DNA of 64,000 nt from Spirochaetaceae bacterium (GTDB taxonomy: Bacteria > Spirochaetota > Spirochaetia > Treponematales > Rectinemataceae): contig JANXYQ010000025.1 of NCBI GenBank assembly GCA_025355995.1, positions 1-64,000 of the forward strand, in the 5' to 3' direction. Made by a program: the position numbers and the translations under genes. Numbering within the stretch: the stretch's first letter is position 1; each line of letters starts with the position of its first letter. Below the pieces are notes generated by a model, which saw only the letters and a program-made list of their open reading frames with translations, searched no databases and was not told the origin of the DNA. Below are positions 23,671 through 38,037 of this stretch, piece by piece.

Positions 23671-24549
23671 CTATCCTTCAGACGCGAGCCGCAGGGCGGC
23701 GATGTCGAGCTTGCCCATCCCGAGCATGGCCGCCATCGCGCGTCCCGCCCTACCCGGGTCGGGATCGCCCAGCAGCTCGCCCAGGGCCGTCGGGACTATC
23801 TGCCAAGATACTCCATACCGGTCCTCGAGCCAGCCGCAGCGGCCCTCTTTCCCGCCTTCCGAGAGTTTTCCCCAGAGCTCGTCTATCTGGCCCTGGGTCT
23901 CGCAGTCGACGAAGAAGGAGACCGCCGGCGTGAAGGCGAAGTCGTGGGGGGCGCTCGAGTCCATGGCCGTGAACTCGACGCCGCCCAGCGAGAAGCGCGC
24001 ATGCTTGACGGAGCCTGGCTTGTCCCCTTCGCCCGCGGCGTAGCGTTCGATACTCACGACCTTCGAGCCGGCGAAGATCGAGGCGTAACGATTAATCGCC
24101 TCCTCCGCCTTCCCCGCCTGCGCGCCGACGAACATCAGCTTGGGAACTATGGCCTTACGCCCTCGCGAGAGATTGAGCTGCCAGGAGAGGCCGAACCTGT
24201 CCTGGACCCAGCCGAATTTCTCGCTGAAGGGGTATTTGCCAAGTTCCATCAAGGCGGTCCCCGAGGCGGAGAGTCCGGCCCACAGGGCATCTAGCTCCGC
24301 CTCGTCCGCGCAGTCGACGAAGAACGAGATCGCCGGGGTGAATTTGTATACCGGACCTCCGTTGAGGGCAGCGAATTCCGTCCCTTCGAGACTGAAGCCG
24401 AGGGTCATCACACTGCCCTTGGGGCCGGGCCCCGCGTCGCCGTAGCGAGCGACCCGTCCGATCGTTGAATCGCCGAAAAGACGGGTATAGAGGGTAGCCG
24501 CCTCTTCGGCCTGACTATCGAACCAGAGGAAGGGACTGATCTTGTGCAT
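23671..24549 (-). CDS. Tandem VOC/PhnB-like (3-demethylubiquinone-9 3-methyltransferase-type) protein
   Basis: 292 residues made of two similar halves. Each has the pattern of the PhnB/glyoxalase fold: ISPFLWFDSQAEEAATLYTRLF and PKLMFVGAQAGKAEEAINRYASIF, then FxALNGG or FTAMDSS, a FFVDC segment, and GWVQDRFGLSWQL or GWLEDRYGVSWQIVP. Such duplicated VOC proteins are common in bacteria but their substrates are mostly unknown; the methyltransferase label is historical. It follows the RibD-like gene by 12 bp on the same strand and has GGAGAG before its ATG. Confidence 0.88.
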   Translation of the reverse strand: MHKISPFLWFDSQAEEAATLYTRLFGDSTIGRVARYGDAGPGPKGSVMTLGFSLEGTEFAALNGGPVYKFTPAISFFVDCADEAELDALWAGLSASGTALMELGKYPFSEKFGWVQDRFGLSWQLNLSRGRKAIVPKLMFVGAQAGKAEEAINRYASIFAGSKVVSIERYAAGEGDKPGSVKHARFSLGGVEFTAMDSSAPHDFAFTPAVSFFVDCETQGQIDELWGKLSEGGKEGRCGWLEDRYGVSWQIVPTALGELLGDPDPGRAGRAMAAMLGMGKLDIAALRLASEG

Positions 24550-30073: not shown

Positions 30074-30997
30074 ATGGACGGGATGGCCCCGTTACCGATA
30101 AGCCCCGAGACCGGGCCCCAAGTGGTGCTCGAGATCCTCTACCGCCTCAAGGTGCGCGACGCCATGAGCTCGCCGGTGATCACCTCCTCGCCCGGGGACA
30201 GCATGCGCGAGGTGCAATACCGGATGAGGGACAACAGCATAACGGGGGTACCGATAGTCGAGAACGGGCGGCTGATCGGCCTAGTCTCCATGGGCCTCGT
30301 CATCGAGGCCCTCGACTCCGGGCGGATCGGCCAGAAGGCGGGCGAGCTCATGACCCGGACCGTCATCTCCCTCGAGGACGACATGCCCCTCGCCTTCGCC
30401 ACGACCTATTTCAACCGCTACAAATTCGGGCGCTTCCCCGTCCTCGACCGGGACGGCCGGCTCGTGGGCATCGTCTGCGCCTCCGACATAATACGCGCCC
30501 TCCTCGTCGCGATGAACAAGGAAGTGGAGCGGCTCGAGGAAAGGCTCGCCGCCTCCGCCGCCTCCGATCGCCCCCCGGACGGCCTGGCGCGGCTCTCCTT
30601 CCAAGTGACCCGCTTCGATTTCGAGAATGCCGGCAAGGCGAGCGCCGAGTTCAAGAAGGCGCTCAAGGGGCTCGGGATCGACGCCGCCATCGTGCGCCGC
30701 GCGGCCGTGGCCTCGTACGAGCTCGAGCTCAACGAGGTAATCCATTCCGACGGGGGCTCGATCTCCTGCCTGGCCGGCGCCGGCCGCATCGAGGTCGTCG
30801 CGGAGGACAGGGGACCGGGGATACCCGACGTGGCGGCCGCCATGACCGAGGGCTTCTCGACGGCCAACGAATGGATACGGAGCCTGGGCTTCGGCGCCGG
30901 AATGGGCCTGCCCAACGCCAAGCGCGTCTCAGACGAGTTCGCCATCGATTCGGGAAAGGGCCGCGGGACGCTCGTCAGGGTAGTAATCAACTATTGA
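30074..30997 (+). CDS. CBS-pair protein with anti-sigma-type ATPase domain
   Basis: 307 residues. Two CBS motifs (about 27-80, VRDAMSSPVITSSPGDS, and 90-145, GELMTRTVISLEDDMP) form an adenosyl-nucleotide-binding pair. From about 170 a GHKL ATPase domain of the RsbW/anti-sigma kind follows, with the N box (ELELNEVIHSDGGSI), G1 (EDRGPGIPD) and G2 (GAGMGLPNAKRVSDEF). It lacks a His phospho-acceptor, so it may act as a serine kinase or as an ATP sensor. GGGGGATA precedes the ATG. It heads a five-gene operon with DRTGG, PHP, kinase and NtrC-type genes; the same opening trio occurs near iron-only hydrogenases in other anaerobes. Confidence 0.9.
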   Translation: MDGMAPLPISPETGPQVVLEILYRLKVRDAMSSPVITSSPGDSMREVQYRMRDNSITGVPIVENGRLIGLVSMGLVIEALDSGRIGQKAGELMTRTVISLEDDMPLAFATTYFNRYKFGRFPVLDRDGRLVGIVCASDIIRALLVAMNKEVERLEERLAASAASDRPPDGLARLSFQVTRFDFENAGKASAEFKKALKGLGIDAAIVRRAAVASYELELNEVIHSDGGSISCLAGAGRIEVVAEDRGPGIPDVAAAMTEGFSTANEWIRSLGFGAGMGLPNAKRVSDEFAIDSGKGRGTLVRVVINY

Positions 30998-31013
30998 GAT
31001 AGGAGTTACCATC

Positions 31014-31355
31014 ATGCTCATCAGCGAGCTCGAGTCCTCACTTGGCATAGGAATGGAGGTCGCCCAGGGCGATTATTCGGACCGCGAGCTGTCGACGGGC
31101 TATGCCTCGGACCTCCTCTCCGACGTCATGGCCAACGCCAAGGCGGACGGCGTCCTCGTGACCGTGCAGGCCCACAAAAACGCGGTAGCGGTCGCGAGCC
31201 TCGTCGGCCTCGCCGCCATCGTCGTGTGCAATTCGCGGCCCCTGCCCGACGACATGATCTCGTCGGCCCGCGCGGAGGGCGTGGCCGTGTTCCGGACGCC
31301 CGCGACCGCGTTCGAGGTCTCTGGACGGCTCTGGGCGGGCCTGCGTCGTCCGTGA
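31014..31355 (+). CDS. DRTGG-domain protein
   Basis: 113 residues forming one DRTGG-type domain: YSDRELSTGYASDLLSDVMANAKADGVLVTVQ, VASLVGLAAIVVCNSRPLP and VAVFRTPATAFEVSGRLW. Such domains occur in phosphotransacetylases and as small stand-alone proteins and are thought to bind a ligand; their function is not settled. AGGAG lies upstream of the ATG, 16 bases after the CBS/ATPase gene, and its stop overlaps the GTG of the PHP gene (GTGA). It most likely partners with the CBS/ATPase protein in sensing a metabolite. Confidence 0.88.
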   Translation: MLISELESSLGIGMEVAQGDYSDRELSTGYASDLLSDVMANAKADGVLVTVQAHKNAVAVASLVGLAAIVVCNSRPLPDDMISSARAEGVAVFRTPATAFEVSGRLWAGLRRP

Positions 31356-32095
31356 GGGCCCTCGCGGACCTGCACAACCACTCGTGCCTCTCTCCCTGCG
31401 CCTCCCTCGAGGAGTCGCCGTCCCTGCTCGCGCGCCTCGCCCGCGAGCGGGGCCTGGGCTTCGTCGCCCTGACCGACCATAACTCCGCGCTGAACTGCCC
31501 AGCCTTCGACGAGGCCTGCCGGCGCGAGGGCCTCGCGCCCCTGTTCGGCATCGAGGCCTGCAGCGTCGAGGAGGTCCACGTCCTCTGCATCTTCGGCCGG
31601 GTCGAGCCGGCGCTGGACTTCGGCCTCCGCCTGCGCTCCGCCTTGATTCCGCTCCCCTACGACCCGGAGAAACTCGGTGACCAGGTCGTCGTCGACGCGG
31701 ACGAGGAGGTGCTCGAGCTCGTCGACTTCTACCTCGGCGCCGCCCTCATCCTGGGCTTCGACGAGATCTGCGCGGAGGCGGCCGAGCGGGGGGCCCTGGT
31801 CATTCCCGCCCACGTGGACCGGCCCATGTTCTCGGTCTCGAGCCAGCTCGGCTTCCTTCCGCCCGGCCCCTACGATGCGGTCGAGTCGATGCGCGAGCCG
31901 GCGCCCGAGCTTAGGGGCGGCCATACGGCGATCTCGGGCTCGGACGCGCATTATCCCGAGCACGTGGCCCGTAGGCCCTTCGCCGTCGAGCTGCCCGACG
32001 GGGCATCGGAGCTGCGCGGCGACTCCCTGCTCGAGGCCCTACGAGCTTCGCTCCGCGCCGGCCTCGTGCGACCCTCCTGGGGCGGGCAAGCATGA
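31352..32095 (+). CDS. PHP-domain metal-dependent phosphoesterase
   Basis: 247 residues from GTG 31352, overlapping the preceding stop by 4 bp; the longer open frame upstream overlaps the DRTGG gene and is not used. The N-terminus ADLHNHSCLSPC supplies the first metal-binding His pair, LTDHNSA the next, and later GSDAHYPEHV and VIPAHVDRP complete the trinuclear PHP site. It likely hydrolyses a phosphoester such as a nucleotide or sugar phosphate, unlike the polymerase-linked PHP. Followed by the sensor kinase gene in another 4-bp ATGA overlap. Confidence 0.9.
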   Translation: MRALADLHNHSCLSPCASLEESPSLLARLARERGLGFVALTDHNSALNCPAFDEACRREGLAPLFGIEACSVEEVHVLCIFGRVEPALDFGLRLRSALIPLPYDPEKLGDQVVVDADEEVLELVDFYLGAALILGFDEICAEAAERGALVIPAHVDRPMFSVSSQLGFLPPGPYDAVESMREPAPELRGGHTAISGSDAHYPEHVARRPFAVELPDGASELRGDSLLEALRASLRAGLVRPSWGGQA

Positions 32096-35000
32096 GGACG
32101 CTCCCTTCGCTCGCGATCCCCGCCGCCCTGGCCTGCCTCCTCTTCGCGCTGCCCGTCCCCGCCCTGGGCGTCGACGAACCGCGAACGAGCTCCCGGGAGA
32201 TACTGGAGCTTCGCGACGGCACGACCAGGATCGGCCTCCTGCCCTACGCCCTAGCCGCCTTCGAGAACGGTCCCATGGACGAGCCCCGGCGCTTGAGCTT
32301 CCAGCCGGATCCCGCCCGATTCAAGATCCCTCGGCCGAGGGCCCTGCGCGGTTTCATAGGAGCCCGGGCGGTCTGGCTGAGCTTCACGATCCGCAGCGCG
32401 GCCTCCTCGCGCTCCTGGCTGATCGCCGCGGGGCCGAACGTCGTAGACAGCGTGAGCGTCTACATCGTCGATCCGGACGGGAGCGTCGAGAGCCTCGTCG
32501 CCGACTCGGGGAGCCGCTCGAGTGAGGGCCCTCGCTCCCTCGCCGAGTTCGCCTTCCGCCTGACGATAGGGCCGGGCCAGGTCAAGACGGTCTACATGCG
32601 CTACGCTTCGGAAAGCCTCCTCAGCGTGGACGCGACCCTTTGGGACTCCTTCTATTACCTCCAGGCCGACGAGCTGAATTCGACCTTTCTCGGCATCCTA
32701 TTCGGAGTCGTCATCGCGGTTTTCCTGTATACGTTCCTCATCGCGATCTCCCTGCGAGAGCGCTTCTACGCGTATTACCTCGTCTACCTCCTCGGCCTTC
32801 TCTTCCTCGTGATGGCTTGGAGCGGGGGTATCAACCCGCTCTGGCGATTCAGCGGCGCCTGGGCGGCGAAGCGGGCTATACCCTTCTTCTCCTGCGTCAT
32901 GGGCCTCGGGATCGCCGCCTTCGCGAGGCGCTTCCTCGACCTGAGGCAGAGCTCTCGCCCGCTCTCCGGAGCGCTTCTGGGCGTCGTTTGGTTCGCCCCC
33001 GTCTTCGCTGCGGGCCTCGCCTTCCTGGACCTAAGGCTGGCGACGGCGGCCGGCATCTTCTTCGACATGGCCGCCCGCCTCGTCATCCTCGCGGCCGGCG
33101 CCTTTGCCGTGGCGAGGACGGGCGGGCGGAGGGAGCGCTATTTCCTCGCCTCGTGGGCCTGCGCGAGCCTCGGGGCCGTCGTCTCGCGCCTGGGAGCCGC
33201 GGGCGTCCTCGACCCGGGCTTGGCGCCGTTCTGGGGGAACAGCGAGCAAGTCGGTGCGCTCCTGCAAGTCCTCCTCCTGTCCTACGGGATAACGGACGCG
33301 ATCAACGCCATGCGCGCCGAGAAGGAGGAAGGTCAGCGCCTGTCGATCGAGCTGCTCGAGCGGGCGAACAGGGTGAAGGAGGATTTCGTCATCGGGACGA
33401 GCCTGGAGATCCGATCCCCGCTCTTCGGAATCGTGGGGCTCTCCGACGCCATCGACGACCTGGCCTCCTCGCGCGGGGAGGAGGCGTCGGAGGAGCGCAG
33501 GCTCGCCGGCCTCGTCAAGGCCGAGGCGCTGCGCCTGCTCGGAAGCGTGGCGAGCATAGCCGCGTACGTGCGCCTTCGCAACGGCGACCTGGCCCTCGTC
33601 GCCGAGCGGGTTTCCCTGCGCGAGGTCTGCGAGGGCGCGGCCGGGACGGCGTCGCACATCGCGTCCGGCAAGGATATCGCCGTCGAGAACGCCGTCGAGG
33701 ACTCCGAGATCGGGACGGACGGCCACGTCCTGGAACAGATCGCCTACAACCTCCTCGCGGAGGCCTTCAAGCGCAGCCCCGCCGGCATCGTGCGCATCGA
33801 GGGCCGGGCCGAGGGCGAGCGCGTCGCCTTGGCCGTCGTCGACTGCGCGCCCGCCCTGAGCGACGAGGTGCTGGCCCGATTCCGCTCCAGGGGCAGCCCG
33901 AGCGGGCCGGAAGCGGTCGGCCCGGGCCTCGAGCTCCTGGTCGCCAGGCTCCTGGCCGAGCGCCTCGGGGGCTCGCTCCGCTATTCCTGGTCCGAGGGCC
34001 GCGGCCGCTTCGACCTCGACTTGCCGAGGGAATGCACCTGGCGGCAGGCGGGGAGGGCCGCCGGCCGCGGGAGTTTTTTTTCCATCCTAGGCAGGATCGC
34101 CGCGAGGGGCGCCCGCCCGATCCGCGCCGACCTGTCGGAGACGCCGCTGGGCAAGGGCACGCGCGGCTCCGTCCTCGCGTACGACGAGGATCCCGTATTC
34201 CTCGAGGCGCTCAAGCGCTTCCTCGAGGGAAGGGGCTATTCCGTCGCTCCGGCGCTGTCCGCCGACGCGGCCGTCGCCTTCGCGCTGTCCCGGCGCTTCG
34301 ACCTCGCCCTCCTCGACGCCACCGGCCAAGGGAAGGCCGGGCTCGCGGCCTGCGCGCGGATCCGCGCGGCCCGCGGCATGGACGAGCTGCCCATCGTGGT
34401 GATGACCGACAGGGAGAGCGTCGAGGCCGTGGAGGCCGCGTTCCGCGCGGGCGCGAGCGACTACCTGCCCAAGCTCTCGCCCAACGAGCTCCTCTTCGCG
34501 CGCGTCGACAACCTCGTCTCGCTGAGGCGCGCCATGGAGGACGCCCTCGAGACGCGCAAGCGCATCGCCGAGCTCGAGAAGCTCAAGACCCTCGGCGTCC
34601 TGGCCGCAGGGGTCGCCCACGAGGTGAACACGCCGAACAACGCGGTGATCCGCAATCTTCCCGTCATTTCCGAGGTTTGGCGCGAGCTCTCGCCGAGCCT
34701 GCGGAGGCTCATGGAGGAGGCCGAGGGCTTCAGCGTGCGCGGCTGGTCTTCCGAGGAGCTCATGCGGGAGCTCCCGGAGCTCCTCGCCGACACGTACAAC
34801 GCGGGCCTCCAGATCAAGAAGATAGTCGAGGACCTCAAGGACTATGCGAGGGATTCCTCCGGCTCGCCCCCCGAGCCCGTGGACATCTCGGCGGTCGCCG
34901 CCTACGCGTCGCGCCTGCTCCAGCCGCTGGTGGGCCGATCCACCCGGCGCTTCGCGCTCGACGCGCCGGCGGGGTTGCCGCCTGCGGAGGCCAATTTCCA

Positions 35001-35361
35001 GAAGATCACCCAAGTGGCTGTCAGCATCCTCGAAAACGCGCTCCAGTCGCTCACCGGGCCCGAGGCGGGGGTCACCCTGCGCACCCGCTTCGACCCGGGC
35101 AGGGGCTGCGTCCTCCTCGAGTGCGAGGACGAGGGCAGGGGCATCGACCCCGACCAGTTGAAGAGCGTTTTCGAGCCCTTCTTCACCACCAAGCGCGACG
35201 AAGGCGGCACGGGGCTCGGCTTGTCGGTGGCCCTCGGCATAGTACGCGACGCCGGGGGCGAGATCGAGATAGAATCGAAACGGGGCAGGGGCACTACCGT
35301 GCGGGTAGTCCTTCCCGCCATTACCGAGGAGAAGAGGGGCAGCGATGAGCGAAGAGAGTAA
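32092..35361 (+). CDS. 7TM-DISM sensor with degenerate and active kinase cores and receiver
   Basis: 1089 residues. A signal peptide (about 1-26) precedes a periplasmic 7TMR-DISM extracellular domain (about 40-200) and seven membrane helices (about 200-410). A first kinase core follows, but the phospho-acceptor position in GTSLEIRSPLFGI is Leu (L438) instead of His, and its ATPase boxes are weak. Next come a receiver with D742 in LLDATGQ, a second HisKA with H843 in GVAHEVNTPNNAV, and a complete HATPase domain (ILENALQSL, EDEGRGIDP, GTGLGLSVALGI). Overlaps PHP (4 bp) and the NtrC-type gene (17 bp), its likely partner. A T8 run lies between the first core and the receiver. Confidence 0.92.
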   Translation: MRTLPSLAIPAALACLLFALPVPALGVDEPRTSSREILELRDGTTRIGLLPYALAAFENGPMDEPRRLSFQPDPARFKIPRPRALRGFIGARAVWLSFTIRSAASSRSWLIAAGPNVVDSVSVYIVDPDGSVESLVADSGSRSSEGPRSLAEFAFRLTIGPGQVKTVYMRYASESLLSVDATLWDSFYYLQADELNSTFLGILFGVVIAVFLYTFLIAISLRERFYAYYLVYLLGLLFLVMAWSGGINPLWRFSGAWAAKRAIPFFSCVMGLGIAAFARRFLDLRQSSRPLSGALLGVVWFAPVFAAGLAFLDLRLATAAGIFFDMAARLVILAAGAFAVARTGGRRERYFLASWACASLGAVVSRLGAAGVLDPGLAPFWGNSEQVGALLQVLLLSYGITDAINAMRAEKEEGQRLSIELLERANRVKEDFVIGTSLEIRSPLFGIVGLSDAIDDLASSRGEEASEERRLAGLVKAEALRLLGSVASIAAYVRLRNGDLALVAERVSLREVCEGAAGTASHIASGKDIAVENAVEDSEIGTDGHVLEQIAYNLLAEAFKRSPAGIVRIEGRAEGERVALAVVDCAPALSDEVLARFRSRGSPSGPEAVGPGLELLVARLLAERLGGSLRYSWSEGRGRFDLDLPRECTWRQAGRAAGRGSFFSILGRIAARGARPIRADLSETPLGKGTRGSVLAYDEDPVFLEALKRFLEGRGYSVAPALSADAAVAFALSRRFDLALLDATGQGKAGLAACARIRAARGMDELPIVVMTDRESVEAVEAAFRAGASDYLPKLSPNELLFARVDNLVSLRRAMEDALETRKRIAELEKLKTLGVLAAGVAHEVNTPNNAVIRNLPVISEVWRELSPSLRRLMEEAEGFSVRGWSSEELMRELPELLADTYNAGLQIKKIVEDLKDYARDSSGSPPEPVDISAVAAYASRLLQPLVGRSTRRFALDAPAGLPPAEANFQKITQVAVSILENALQSLTGPEAGVTLRTRFDPGRGCVLLECEDEGRGIDPDQLKSVFEPFFTTKRDEGGTGLGLSVALGIVRDAGGEIEIESKRGRGTTVRVVLPAITEEKRGSDERRE
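34074..34081 (+). other. T8 homopolymer within the sensor kinase gene
   Basis: Eight T in a row inside an otherwise GC-rich gene, in the codons for Ser-Phe-Phe-Ser (661-664). Loss of one T would bring a TAG into frame within three codons (34088-34090) and end the protein after the first, degenerate kinase core. A GC hairpin (GGCC-GCC-GGCC) lies a few bases upstream. Confidence 0.6.
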
Positions 35362-36781
35362 ATCCAGCATCCTCGTCGTCGACGACGATCCCGACGTCCT
35401 CAGGCGCATGGACCGCTTCCTCAGGTTCGAGGGCTTCCGCGACATCGTATGCTGCTCCGACCCGCGCGATGTGGCCGCCCTCGTCGACCGCAGCGAATTC
35501 TCCGTGATGGTCCTCGACCTGCTCATGCCTGGCATGCCGGGACAGAAGGTGCTCGAGGAAACGCGGGAGCGCCATCCCGAGGTCCCGGTGATCGTCGCGA
35601 CGGCGGTAAACGACCTCGACAGCGCGATCGACTGCATGCGGCACGGCGCCTTCGACTACGTCCCCAAGACCGCCGAGACGGGGCGCCTGGCCTCCAGCAT
35701 CCGCCACGCCCTCTCGATACGGGAGCTCCAGCGCGATTATTCGGCCCTGAAGGATACCCTGCTGGCGGCCAAGCGTCCCGAGTCGCCCGCCTTCGCCGAC
35801 TTGGTCACCTCCGACGAGCGAATGTTGAGCGTCCTGCGCTACGTCGAGACGATCGCCGCCTCGCCCAAGCCCATCCTCATAATGGGCGAGTCCGGCACGG
35901 GCAAGGAACTCATGGCCCAGGCGGTCCATCGCCTCTCGGGCAGGAAGGGACCCCTCGTCAGCCTGAATATAGCCGGACTCGACGATACGATGTTCGCCGA
36001 TAGCCTCTTCGGACATAGGCGCGGCGCCTTCACGGGGGCGGACACGGATCGCGGCGGCCTCATTGAGCGAGCCGAGGGAGGGACGCTGTTCCTCGACGAG
36101 ATCGGCGAGCTTTCCCAGGTCTCCCAGGTCAAGCTTCTGCGCCTTATCGAGGACAAGCGCTACTACCCCCTCGGCGCGGACCTCCCCAAGGCGTCGAGCG
36201 CGACGGTCGTCACGGCGACTAACCGCGACCTGAGGGCGGCTTCCGTCGCCGGCGCGTTCCGCCTCGACCTCTTCTATCGCCTCCAGACCCACCTCGTCCA
36301 GCTGCCCCCCCTTCGCGACAGGCTGGGCGACCTGCCCCTCCTCCTCTCGCATTTCGTGCGGCAATCCGCCGAGCGCCTGGGGCGGGGCGTGCCGTCCATA
36401 CCCGAGGAGCTCGTGCTGCTCCTGGAGTCCTACGACTTCCCCGGCAACGTCCGAGAACTGGAATCCATGGTCTTCGACGCCATGAGCGGCCTCAAGGGCG
36501 GAGTGCTCGGCCTCGAAAGCTTCCGACGCAAGATATCCCGCGGGACCAATCCGAAGAGCGCGCCGGGAAAGGCCGTCACCGGCAACGACGCGACCCGCTT
36601 CTCCTCGTGGGAAAGGCTTCCGAGCCTAAAGCAAACCTCGGAGGAGCTCATCCGAGAGGCCTTGCGACGGACCAAAGGCAACCAGGGCATCGCCGCAGAT
36701 CTCCTGGGAATCTCGCGTACGGCATTGAATAAAAGACTAAAAAGCACTCGGGAAGTAGAAAACGACCAAGAAGATGAGTAA
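35345..36781 (+). CDS. Sigma-54-dependent response regulator (NtrC type)
   Basis: 478 residues. Receiver domain (1-120) with VVDDDPD, the phospho-acceptor Asp in MVLDLLMPGMPG and Lys in YVPKTAE. AAA+ domain (about 150-380) with Walker A GESGTGKE, the sigma-54 contact loop GAFTGA, Walker B GGTLFLDEIGEL and the arginine-finger region. A Fis-type helix-turn-helix ends the protein (REALRRTKGNQGIAADLLGISRTALNKRL). It starts 17 bp inside the end of the sensor kinase gene, so the two are a cognate pair. It should bind upstream elements and activate sigma-54 promoters; a good candidate lies 243 bp downstream of its stop. Confidence 0.95.
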   Translation: MSEESKSSILVVDDDPDVLRRMDRFLRFEGFRDIVCCSDPRDVAALVDRSEFSVMVLDLLMPGMPGQKVLEETRERHPEVPVIVATAVNDLDSAIDCMRHGAFDYVPKTAETGRLASSIRHALSIRELQRDYSALKDTLLAAKRPESPAFADLVTSDERMLSVLRYVETIAASPKPILIMGESGTGKELMAQAVHRLSGRKGPLVSLNIAGLDDTMFADSLFGHRRGAFTGADTDRGGLIERAEGGTLFLDEIGELSQVSQVKLLRLIEDKRYYPLGADLPKASSATVVTATNRDLRAASVAGAFRLDLFYRLQTHLVQLPPLRDRLGDLPLLLSHFVRQSAERLGRGVPSIPEELVLLLESYDFPGNVRELESMVFDAMSGLKGGVLGLESFRRKISRGTNPKSAPGKAVTGNDATRFSSWERLPSLKQTSEELIREALRRTKGNQGIAADLLGISRTALNKRLKSTREVENDQEDE

Positions 36782-36788
36782 TTAGCTC

Positions 36789-36804
36789 TGTGAATATTTT
36801 CACA
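36789..36804. promoter_or_regulatory. CRP-like palindrome
   Basis: TGTGA-ATATTT-TCACA is a perfect match to the CRP half-sites, and the palindrome extends inward one base (TGTGAA/TTCACA). It lies 8 bases after the stop of the NtrC-type gene, at the left edge of an AT-rich non-coding stretch. A class III cyclase and a cyclic-nucleotide-binding protein are encoded elsewhere in the window, but no CRP with a DNA-binding domain is seen here. Confidence 0.5.
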
Positions 36805-36896
36805 ACCTATATGCTTCGGCACATGTTGAATAAATATATATATAATATAGGAATAACGATAAAAAACAGCATGCTGATAAATATATAATTGAAAAA

Positions 36897-36912
36897 TGGC
36901 ACAGGGCTAGTA
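36897..36912 (+). promoter_or_regulatory. Weak sigma-54-like promoter
   Basis: TGGCAC-AGGGC-TAGTA keeps the -24 element exactly and the GG-to-G spacing, but the -12 GC is GT. A transcript from it would start near 36922 and hit the hairpin terminator at 36931 after only about 45 bases. Confidence 0.3.
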
Positions 36913-36930: not shown

Positions 36931-36967
36931 AGCCTTGTAGACGCTCGTCTACAAGGCTTCTTTTTAT
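36931..36967 (+). terminator. Strong intrinsic terminator
   Basis: AGCCTTGTAGAC, a GCTC loop and GTCTACAAGGCT form a perfect 12-bp stem, followed by TCTTTTTAT. It can end the five-gene signalling operon, whose last stop is 150 bp upstream, or a short RNA starting near 36922. Confidence 0.9.
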
Positions 36968-37023: not shown

Positions 37024-37040
37024 TTGGCACAGAAGATGCT
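37024..37040 (+). promoter_or_regulatory. Sigma-54 promoter
   Basis: TTGGCACAGAAGATGCT matches the sigma-54 consensus with the exact GG-N10-GC spacing; only the first base of the -12 element differs. It faces away from the NtrC-type gene and lies 57 bp after a strong terminator, so it starts a new transcript near 37051. No protein gene follows on this strand. Confidence 0.75.
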
Positions 37041-37050
37041 CTATAGGTAG

Positions 37051-37255
37051 CAGGTAATAAAGTGGATTTAAAAGTTCAGATGTAAAACGATCCTAGGTAA
37101 AAAGGTCCGAATTTAACAAAGTGTAGGTAAAAATAGAGCGACCGTTTTTACCCGGGAACGGCGGTAGCTCAAAATTATCTGTTTCCTGCCGCTCGTATCT
37201 ATAAATACAACGGGTGGGGGCCGCGAGGGTTAATTCCCCGCGGCCCTATTTTTTT
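37051..37255 (+). ncRNA. Probable sigma-54-dependent structured small RNA
   Basis: The stretch from the predicted start to the terminator is about 205 bases, has no credible open frame on this strand, and is far richer in A and T than its surroundings. It can form several hairpins: GGTAAAAA (37126-37133) with TTTTTACC (37145-37152), GCGGTAG (37161-37167) with CTGCCGC (37186-37192), and the terminator. A TAGGTA unit occurs three times in the 5' half (37044, 37094, 37124), two of them followed by AAAA, which may be single-stranded target-binding sites. Its neighbour, the NtrC-type regulator, is the natural activator. An alternative is an untranslated leader of an unseen gene, but none follows in sense. 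Confidence 0.55.
37218..37255 (+). terminator. Intrinsic terminator on the plus strand
   Basis: GGGCCGCG and CGCGGCCC enclose a GGG/CCC inner stem and a short loop, followed by TATTTTTTT. The T tract is the complement of the last Lys codons of the minus-strand lipoprotein gene, so the two transcripts meet here. Confidence 0.8.
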
Positions 37256-38037
37256 GCCTCTTTCCAGCGAAGCCAGACCTCGATCGGCTTTTCCAGGGTC
37301 AGGGCTTGTATGATCGGGATCCTCGCCGTCAGGGTGGAGCCCTCGAGGCTGCCTCCGCCGGAGCCAATGACCGCTCCCGGGGCCGAGAGGGACAGGATGA
37401 TCGCCGCGGCTTCCATCGCCGGCATCGCCTTGTCCCCCAGTATGCTCCTGAGCATCGTCTTGTACTCAGCCATGGTGACCGGGTCCTCCTCGAGGGCGGG
37501 GGGCGAGAGGGCATCCAACAGGTAGGGATCGATCCCCGGGAAGAGGGCCGAGAGGGCGCGGACGCTCCCGCGATCCAGGCGGAACCGGCATTCGGCCCAG
37601 CCCGCTCCCCGCGAAACCGCGATGAGCCCGGAGCCCTTGAGGTCGGGCGAGGCAGCCAATTCCTCGAGGCTCCGCGCGGAGACGGTTACTCGGATCGAAT
37701 CCGGGCTGGGCTGGGCGAGTTCCTCCAATGACAGGGCGGGGCGGGCTGCGACGGAGGCCCGGATGGCCGCGGCGTCGAAGAAGGTTCCCGTCGAGCCGCT
37801 GGCGAGCTTGCGGAATTTCGCCGCCAAGGGCGACGGAACCTCCGCTTGGACCGAGAGGCCCGCGCCGCCGTCCGCCCGGATGGCGGCGGAGACCGAGCCC
37901 GAGCAGGAGGCGAGGAGCAGTGCCGCCGCCAGGAAGGCGGCGCCAAGGCATAGGGATCCCGCGATTACCAGGAAGAGAGCCCGCTTGCCCTGCCATCGCG
38001 GATCGCGCATGCTTACCATATCGGAGCTAACATCCAT
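37246..38037 (-). CDS. Lipoprotein of unknown function
   Basis: 263 residues from ATG 38037, with AGGG five bases upstream; ATG at codon 10 is also possible. A hydrophobic segment ends in the lipobox LASC with Cys45, so the mature protein would be lipid-anchored. The rest (about 218 residues) is Ala/Ser/Leu-rich with no recognised domain; patterns such as RVTVSARSLEELAASPDLKGSGLIAVSRGAG suggest an alpha/beta fold. It stands alone between the small RNA region and the divergent acyl-CoA synthetase gene. Confidence 0.8.
   Translation of the reverse strand: MDVSSDMVSMRDPRWQGKRALFLVIAGSLCLGAAFLAAALLLASCSGSVSAAIRADGGAGLSVQAEVPSPLAAKFRKLASGSTGTFFDAAAIRASVAARPALSLEELAQPSPDSIRVTVSARSLEELAASPDLKGSGLIAVSRGAGWAECRFRLDRGSVRALSALFPGIDPYLLDALSPPALEEDPVTMAEYKTMLRSILGDKAMPAMEAAAIILSLSAPGAVIGSGGGSLEGSTLTARIPIIQALTLEKPIEVWLRWKEAKK

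Follow-up and report, generated by a model that had tools for sequence, protein, structure and literature searches.

A conserved sigma-54 promoter and a predicted small RNA with a repeated word adjoin an NtrC-type regulator gene in spirochaetes

The 64,000-nucleotide stretch of spirochaete DNA analysed here (the window) carries, next to the gene for an NtrC-type response regulator, a sigma-54 promoter followed by a predicted small RNA at 37051-37255 of the forward strand, and this block recurs in 17 genomes from two families of the order. The evidence leans toward a stand-alone, sigma-54-dependent small RNA that is activated by the regulator and acts as a decoy for an unidentified RNA-binding protein recognizing a short word repeated along the transcript, with a second RNA setting the basal level. 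The circuit arrangement, as deduced from sequence, is well supported: this covers the predicted promoter, an enhancer-like palindrome, the repetition of the motif, the terminator, the apparent lack of coding potential and the conservation of the block. Transcription, activation by the regulator and the decoy step are inferences for which there is no transcript evidence.

The regulator operon and the small RNA

The operon upstream of the RNA (30074-36781, forward strand) begins with a gene for a protein with two CBS domains and an anti-sigma/serine-kinase-like HATPase domain (gene 1, 30074-30997; Pfam PF00571 and PF02518), orthologs of which occur with gene order kept in five relatives. It is followed by genes for a weak DRTGG-domain protein (gene 2, 31014-31355), identified by synteny and by a PF07085 match below the curated cut-off, and for a PHP-domain protein (gene 3, 31226-32095; PF02811 and synteny) whose true start probably lies downstream of 31226, because most relatives align from residues 42-46. 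The last two genes encode, by their Pfam domains, a 7TMR-DISM hybrid histidine kinase with a receiver and two HATPase domains (gene 4, 32092-35361), whose orthologs are 32-68% identical, and the NtrC-type regulator with its receiver, sigma-54 interaction AAA+ and Fis-type helix-turn-helix domains (gene 5, 35345-36781), which is the presumed activator of the small RNA. On the far side of the RNA, a convergent gene (37246-38037, reverse strand) ends at the RNA terminator and encodes a 263-residue protein of unknown family, without a match in Pfam or NCBIfam; nor did NCBIfam supply a specific name above cut-off for any gene of the operon. Since the RNA has only the regulator gene and this 263-residue protein as neighbours, there is no adjoining toxin gene of the kind that the criterion for a type III antitoxin calls for.

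The sequence-only reading of this region had proposed a near-consensus sigma-54 promoter with exact GG-N10-GC spacing directly downstream of an activator gene, and both parts of the proposal hold. The element TGGCACAGAAGATGCT (37025-37040, forward strand) has its -24 GG at 37026-37027 and, ten nucleotides on, its -12 GC at 37038-37039; it lies 243 nt past the regulator stop, and the 4.5-Mb genome has only 8 sites, this one included, that fit TGGCAC-N6-TGCW. Its assignment rests on sequence, on this genome-wide count and on its conserved position. An rpoN gene (PF04552), without which the proposal would have failed, was found in the window genome and in all 29 relatives searched, and the locus thus combines the features of a sigma-54-dependent unit, namely rpoN, a -24/-12 element, an upstream enhancer-like site and a gene for an AAA+ activator. 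Another sigma-54-consensus-like sequence, TGGCACGAAAATTGCT, is located elsewhere in the window genome (contig C128, 91570-91585), about 200 bp 5' of a 16S rRNA gene.

The RNA is predicted to start at about 37051 and to end at 37255, the last T of a strong intrinsic terminator (37216-37255, forward strand) composed of GGGGGCCGCGAGGG-TTAATT-CCCCGCGGCCC and seven T residues; these limits are drawn from the promoter, the fold and comparison with relatives. The roughly 205 nt without a sense gene that had been described withstood scrutiny. No open reading frame of at least 60 residues lies within the RNA on the forward strand (one begins at 37214, in the terminator), none of at least 14 codons both begins and ends inside it, and the conserved protein that would have refuted the idea of a non-coding RNA did not turn up in the stretch. 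The claim that the RNA is structured likewise found support in a minimum free energy of -64.2 kcal/mol (z = -3.0 against shuffles), a value to which the strong terminator contributes.

Of the three TAGGTA units noted previously, the first (37044-37049) precedes the predicted start and cannot belong to the transcript as delimited here; the repetition itself is real and takes the form A[G/U]GUAA(A/U)A(A). By word alignment, the copies, all on the forward strand, are the variant AGGUAAUAA at 37052-37060, AUGUAAAAC at 37080-37088, and AGGUAAAAA at both 37095-37103 and 37125-37133. Local folds place a hairpin, GAGCGACCG...CGGUAGCUC (37136-37170, forward strand), 3' of the last copy, and a counterpart with altered bases is seen in the RNA of a genome of the same genus (G001). 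The minimum-energy fold also pairs the third copy with UUUUUACC; this pairing was dropped because it is absent from the same-genus RNA, which has UUCCUACC instead and can form a hairpin of its own.

Elements upstream of the promoter

The putative enhancer is the palindrome CTGTGAATATTTTCACAA (36788-36805), which begins 7 nt past the regulator stop and has the consensus CTGTGCAWWWWTGCACAG in relatives. A counterpart, degenerate in some cases, lies 196-248 nt 5' of the sigma-54 site in 16 of 16 scanned loci, mostly near the regulator stop, and another is visible in G043, a genome in which the block was found by a separate route (see below). Within 490 kb of the window genome, a related palindrome pattern matches at 36788 only. 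A second element, CACAGGG (36897-36906, forward strand), is proposed as a further activator site on account of its recurrence in relatives: CACAG occurs 79-136 nt 5' of the promoter in about half of the genomes (nine, including the window genome and G001), and a CACAGGG-like element is absent from several others.

Between these elements and the promoter lies a terminator-like hairpin of the regulator operon (36932-36966, forward strand), the stem of which is the palindrome TGTAGACGCTCGTCTACA (36936-36953) and possibly doubles as an operator. The window genome holds one exact copy of this palindrome, just 5' of the sigma-54 promoter. In G001, the corresponding TGTAGACNNNNGTCTACA palindrome has four sites only (C146 at 2077 and 2119, C222 at 908 and C81 at 9696; the window site is 36936-36953), of which one precedes the sigma-54 RNA, two precede the second repeat RNA and one precedes a gene with a LuxR-like helix-turn-helix sequence. 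This rare palindrome is thus common to both repeat-RNA loci and to the LuxR-like gene, and the regulator that binds it is unidentified.

Conservation of the block among relatives

A BLAST search with the RNA in 59 relatives returned the self-match only. As DNA search thus gave no relative of the RNA, its counterparts were sought by synteny with orthologs of the kinase and the regulator. A search of 294 genomes yielded 17 regulator orthologs at E<1e-148, the window's own gene included, and for 16 of these (again counting its own) the sequence can be read past the 3' end of the gene. The G043 ortholog stops at a contig edge, and a search with an RNA model located the same block on another contig of that genome; the 17 genomes thus comprise 16 reached from the regulator and one reached from the RNA. 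Each has the regulator, the enhancer-like palindrome, the sigma-54 promoter, an RNA of 115-205 nt and the terminator. A sigma-54 site is present downstream of the regulator in 16 of 16 loci. In 15 of them its distance from the start of the scanned segment is 277-353 nt; the remaining genome (G096) was scanned at a different offset because of a nearby contig end. Dinucleotide shuffles put the chance expectation for a slightly relaxed sigma-54 pattern at 0.003 per intergenic region, yet 17 related regions have it at the corresponding place. An RNA-sized stretch bearing the word follows the sigma-54 site in all 16 loci, with a clear terminator in nearly all; the G001 RNA runs into an assembly gap.

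The RNAs themselves have diverged almost beyond alignment, and it is the repeated word that they have in common. An RNA model built from family f4 (R1) retrieves its own family and a few weak relatives and misses the window RNA, and strong RNA-model matches (E<=1e-4) were confined to genomes that also encode a regulator ortholog. The number of independent events is smaller than 17, given that the genomes represent two families and about 11 genera, and the genomes compared are partly metagenome assemblies. The suggestion that the operon at 30074-36781 and the RNA form one circuit gains strength: with rpoN present, no conserved protein in the stretch, and the arrangement kept in 17 genomes despite near-complete change of the RNA sequence, the two very probably constitute a single circuit, a judgement made without transcript data.

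Paralogous NtrC-type regulators (46-48% identical, four loci) are also followed by sigma-54-like sites, and the repeat word is absent there.

The same comparison bears on whether the stretch might instead encode a hidden small protein, or serve a downstream gene as its 5' leader or attenuator, alternatives that we regard as barely credible. In several genomes of family f4 (seven loci), a hemolysin-III-like gene, as judged by eye, does seem to come next on the same strand, as a leader would require; but a strong terminator closes almost every RNA and the next gene is convergent in family f1, and a small-protein gene is countered by the lack of any open reading frame conserved among the RNAs.

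The repeated word

The word A[G/U]GUAAAA(A) occurs 28 times in the 17 RNAs against 0.96 expected, with a maximum of 4 in 200 dinucleotide shuffles; for the window RNA alone, A[GT]GTAAAA occurs 3 times against 0.06. Each RNA has one to four strict copies, G004 showing a single clear copy and G066, G072 and G063 one strict copy plus variants. An alignment of 71 copies, seeded on GTAANA and pooling the RNAs of this locus with those of the second locus described below, gives position -2 as A in 89% of copies and position -1 as G or U, followed by GUAA-A-A and mostly A, with random flanks; a short word in random flanks is, on sequence grounds, what a binding site would look like. The word is also rare, with 9 occurrences on both strands of 490 kb of the window genome, 4 of which are inside the two repeat RNAs; this sample drew on 20 stretches amounting to about 9% of the genome rather than on the whole.

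These properties could also describe an array of DNA operators for a transcription factor, with the transcript incidental: the repeats are short and all face the same way, and immediately upstream is a DNA palindrome that also occurs at the promoter of the second RNA. The features of the RNAs make this highly improbable. Every copy lies 3' of the start and 5' of the terminator, always on the RNA strand; the motifs of the second-locus RNAs alternate with hairpins; and in other families the word stands downstream of unrelated promoters. In family f4, moreover, a stem of 5-7 bp surrounds all or most of the motif array in each of the 8 RNAs; the stem changes in sequence and keeps its pairing (GCCCC/GGGGC, AGUCCC/GGGACU, AUCCCUG/CGGGGAU), and stems that vary yet remain paired constitute evidence for function as RNA and not as DNA. 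The hairpins of family f1 vary between genomes. Predicted unpairedness is no higher for the word (0.69) than for other A residues (0.66), so that the case for its accessibility rests on the surrounding stems and not on a separate statistic.

If the word functions in RNA, the main rival to a protein decoy is that the copies are redundant seeds with which a sigma-54-driven small RNA pairs, in the manner of Qrr, with UUUUUAC(A/C)U in mRNAs. Pairing seeds were what the earlier reading had in mind, and near-identical, mostly single-stranded repeats could indeed serve as multiple seeds. Qrr small RNAs of Vibrio, moreover, have a sigma-54 promoter and are activated via the NtrC-type regulator LuxO. 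Yet none of the 364 leaders of genes called in the 490 kb contains the complementary word, and the sense word, found once, is not in excess there either; gene starts were crude and the scan has low power, too small to decide the matter. The seed would be A-rich and weak in pairing, exchange of G and U is tolerated at its second position, as in a protein site or a wobble, and the word is common to RNAs of different loci and families that are otherwise dissimilar. Together with the failure to find Hfq in 59 genomes of the order (see below), these points do not favour seeds over a decoy, and we consider pairing unlikely.

A second repeat RNA

A search for two words in tandem pattern led to a second locus, whose six RNAs contain 20 copies of the word against 0.26 expected. 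In G009, G017, G003, G015 and G018, the words alternate with GC-rich hairpins and are followed by a terminator. As judged by eye, the promoter is sigma-70-like and there is no sigma-54 promoter. The window genome has its second RNA on contig C100 (about 24157-24271, reverse strand; L205/L191), with two words, GCAUGUAAAAAAAGCCGCUCGUCUAGGCGGAGGUAAAAAUGCGAGGGGCUGGCC and a terminator; degenerate TGTAGAC palindromes were observed upstream. G001 has its second RNA on C146. Three f4 genomes without a regulator ortholog at the threshold used (G032, G037 and G075) keep the second RNA, with the word drifted to AUUUAAAA. Matches to the second-RNA model (R2) at E>1e-6 included many chance terminators, and candidates such as one on contig C83 of the window genome were rejected on inspection.

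Weaker relatives with GGUAAAAAAGU words occur at five loci in two other families, f5 and f3 (L145, L146, L147, L152 and L133, in G237, G250, G170, G218 and G079, respectively). They are possible further repeat RNAs, and no sigma-54 promoter was seen at any of the five.

Comparison with known systems and proposed mechanism

Rfam gave no match at the gathering score in the window and only chance-level matches for five loci at a permissive threshold, and no description of the window RNA was found in the open-access literature. The closest likeness is to CbrA/CbrB-CrcZ/CrcY, in which genes for a kinase and an NtrC-type regulator are directly followed by a sigma-54 promoter driving a small RNA with repeated A-rich motifs, and a second small RNA, CrcY, bears the same motif at another locus. 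Both crcZ and crcY are RpoN-dependent, and the two RNAs relieve Hfq-Crc repression (PMC6292655); CbrAB with its synteny has been described as unique to Pseudomonadaceae (PMC8871633). The spirochaete system differs in its word, which is A[G/U]GUAAAAA rather than AAYAAYAA, in its 7TMR-DISM kinase with CBS-ATPase, DRTGG and PHP partners, in a second RNA that lacks a sigma-54 promoter, and in the apparent lack of Hfq, for which profile PF17209 found no match in 59 genomes of the order while controls were positive. Among spirochaetes, Hfq has been reported from Leptospiraceae only (PMC11607428).

The locus also resembles CsrB/CsrC and RsmX/Y/Z in its two-component control, its many putative protein-binding words between or in hairpins and its multiple RNAs per genome. 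GacA-type activation of the Csr/Rsm RNAs is not sigma-54-dependent. An ordinary sponge for CsrA or for Hfq/Crc, that is, a CsrB/RsmZ or CrcZ homologue, might accordingly be entertained from the CbrB-CrcZ-like architecture and from the presence of CsrA in the carriers searched (it is missing from some relatives). The RNAs are poorly suited to either: GGA is not enriched (38 against 34.6 expected; ANGGA, 6 against 10.0), the AAYAAYAA CA motif is absent from all 17, and with neither Hfq nor an Rfam match this explanation is very doubtful. Compared with Qrr, the spirochaete RNA has repeats instead of one conserved pairing region, and no demonstrated seed. RgsA, NfiS/NfiR and other Pseudomonas small RNAs are RpoN-linked as well; these are single genes and are not known to act as repeat decoys linked to a neighbouring NtrC regulator. 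The likeness is best read as independent evolution of a circuit resembling CbrB-CrcZ.

With the CA motif absent, Hfq unmatched in the 59 genomes and GGA not enriched, the reading with the best support is a decoy whose target protein is unidentified. On this model, sigma-54 RNA polymerase would transcribe 37051-37255 when the adjoining hybrid kinase and NtrC-type regulator are active. The regulator would activate the promoter at 37025-37040 from the palindrome CTGTG-N8-CACAR, which it would bind just 3' of the gene encoding it, and probably from the CACAGGG element as well. In the resulting RNA, A[G/U]GUAAAA(A) would be displayed in several copies, within stems or between them, and the RNA would most likely titrate a protein that recognizes the word; the basal level would be set by the second RNA, which has the word but does not depend on sigma-54. 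Several observations count against this model: there is no transcript evidence; no candidate binding protein has been found, Hfq being unmatched and CsrA, though present, lacking its enriched GGA; no regulon was seen in the 364 crude leaders, a scan of low power; some of the RNAs have a single clear or strict copy of the word; the word is predicted to be no more unpaired than other A residues; and the minimum-energy fold of the window RNA pairs the third copy.

Implications for spirochaete gene regulation

A broader proposal, which we advance only tentatively, is that a wide group of Hfq-less spirochaetes possesses a global post-transcriptional system of its own, built on an unidentified A[G/U]GUAAAAA-binding protein and at least two decoy RNAs, one of them under a sigma-54 two-component switch. 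Such a circuit would mean that the CbrB-CrcZ layout arose separately outside Pseudomonadaceae as well. How mRNAs are globally controlled in these spirochaetes, in which Hfq was not found and some relatives lack CsrA, is largely unknown, and the conserved repeat RNA offers a concrete bait, a 9-nt word, for the missing RNA-binding protein.
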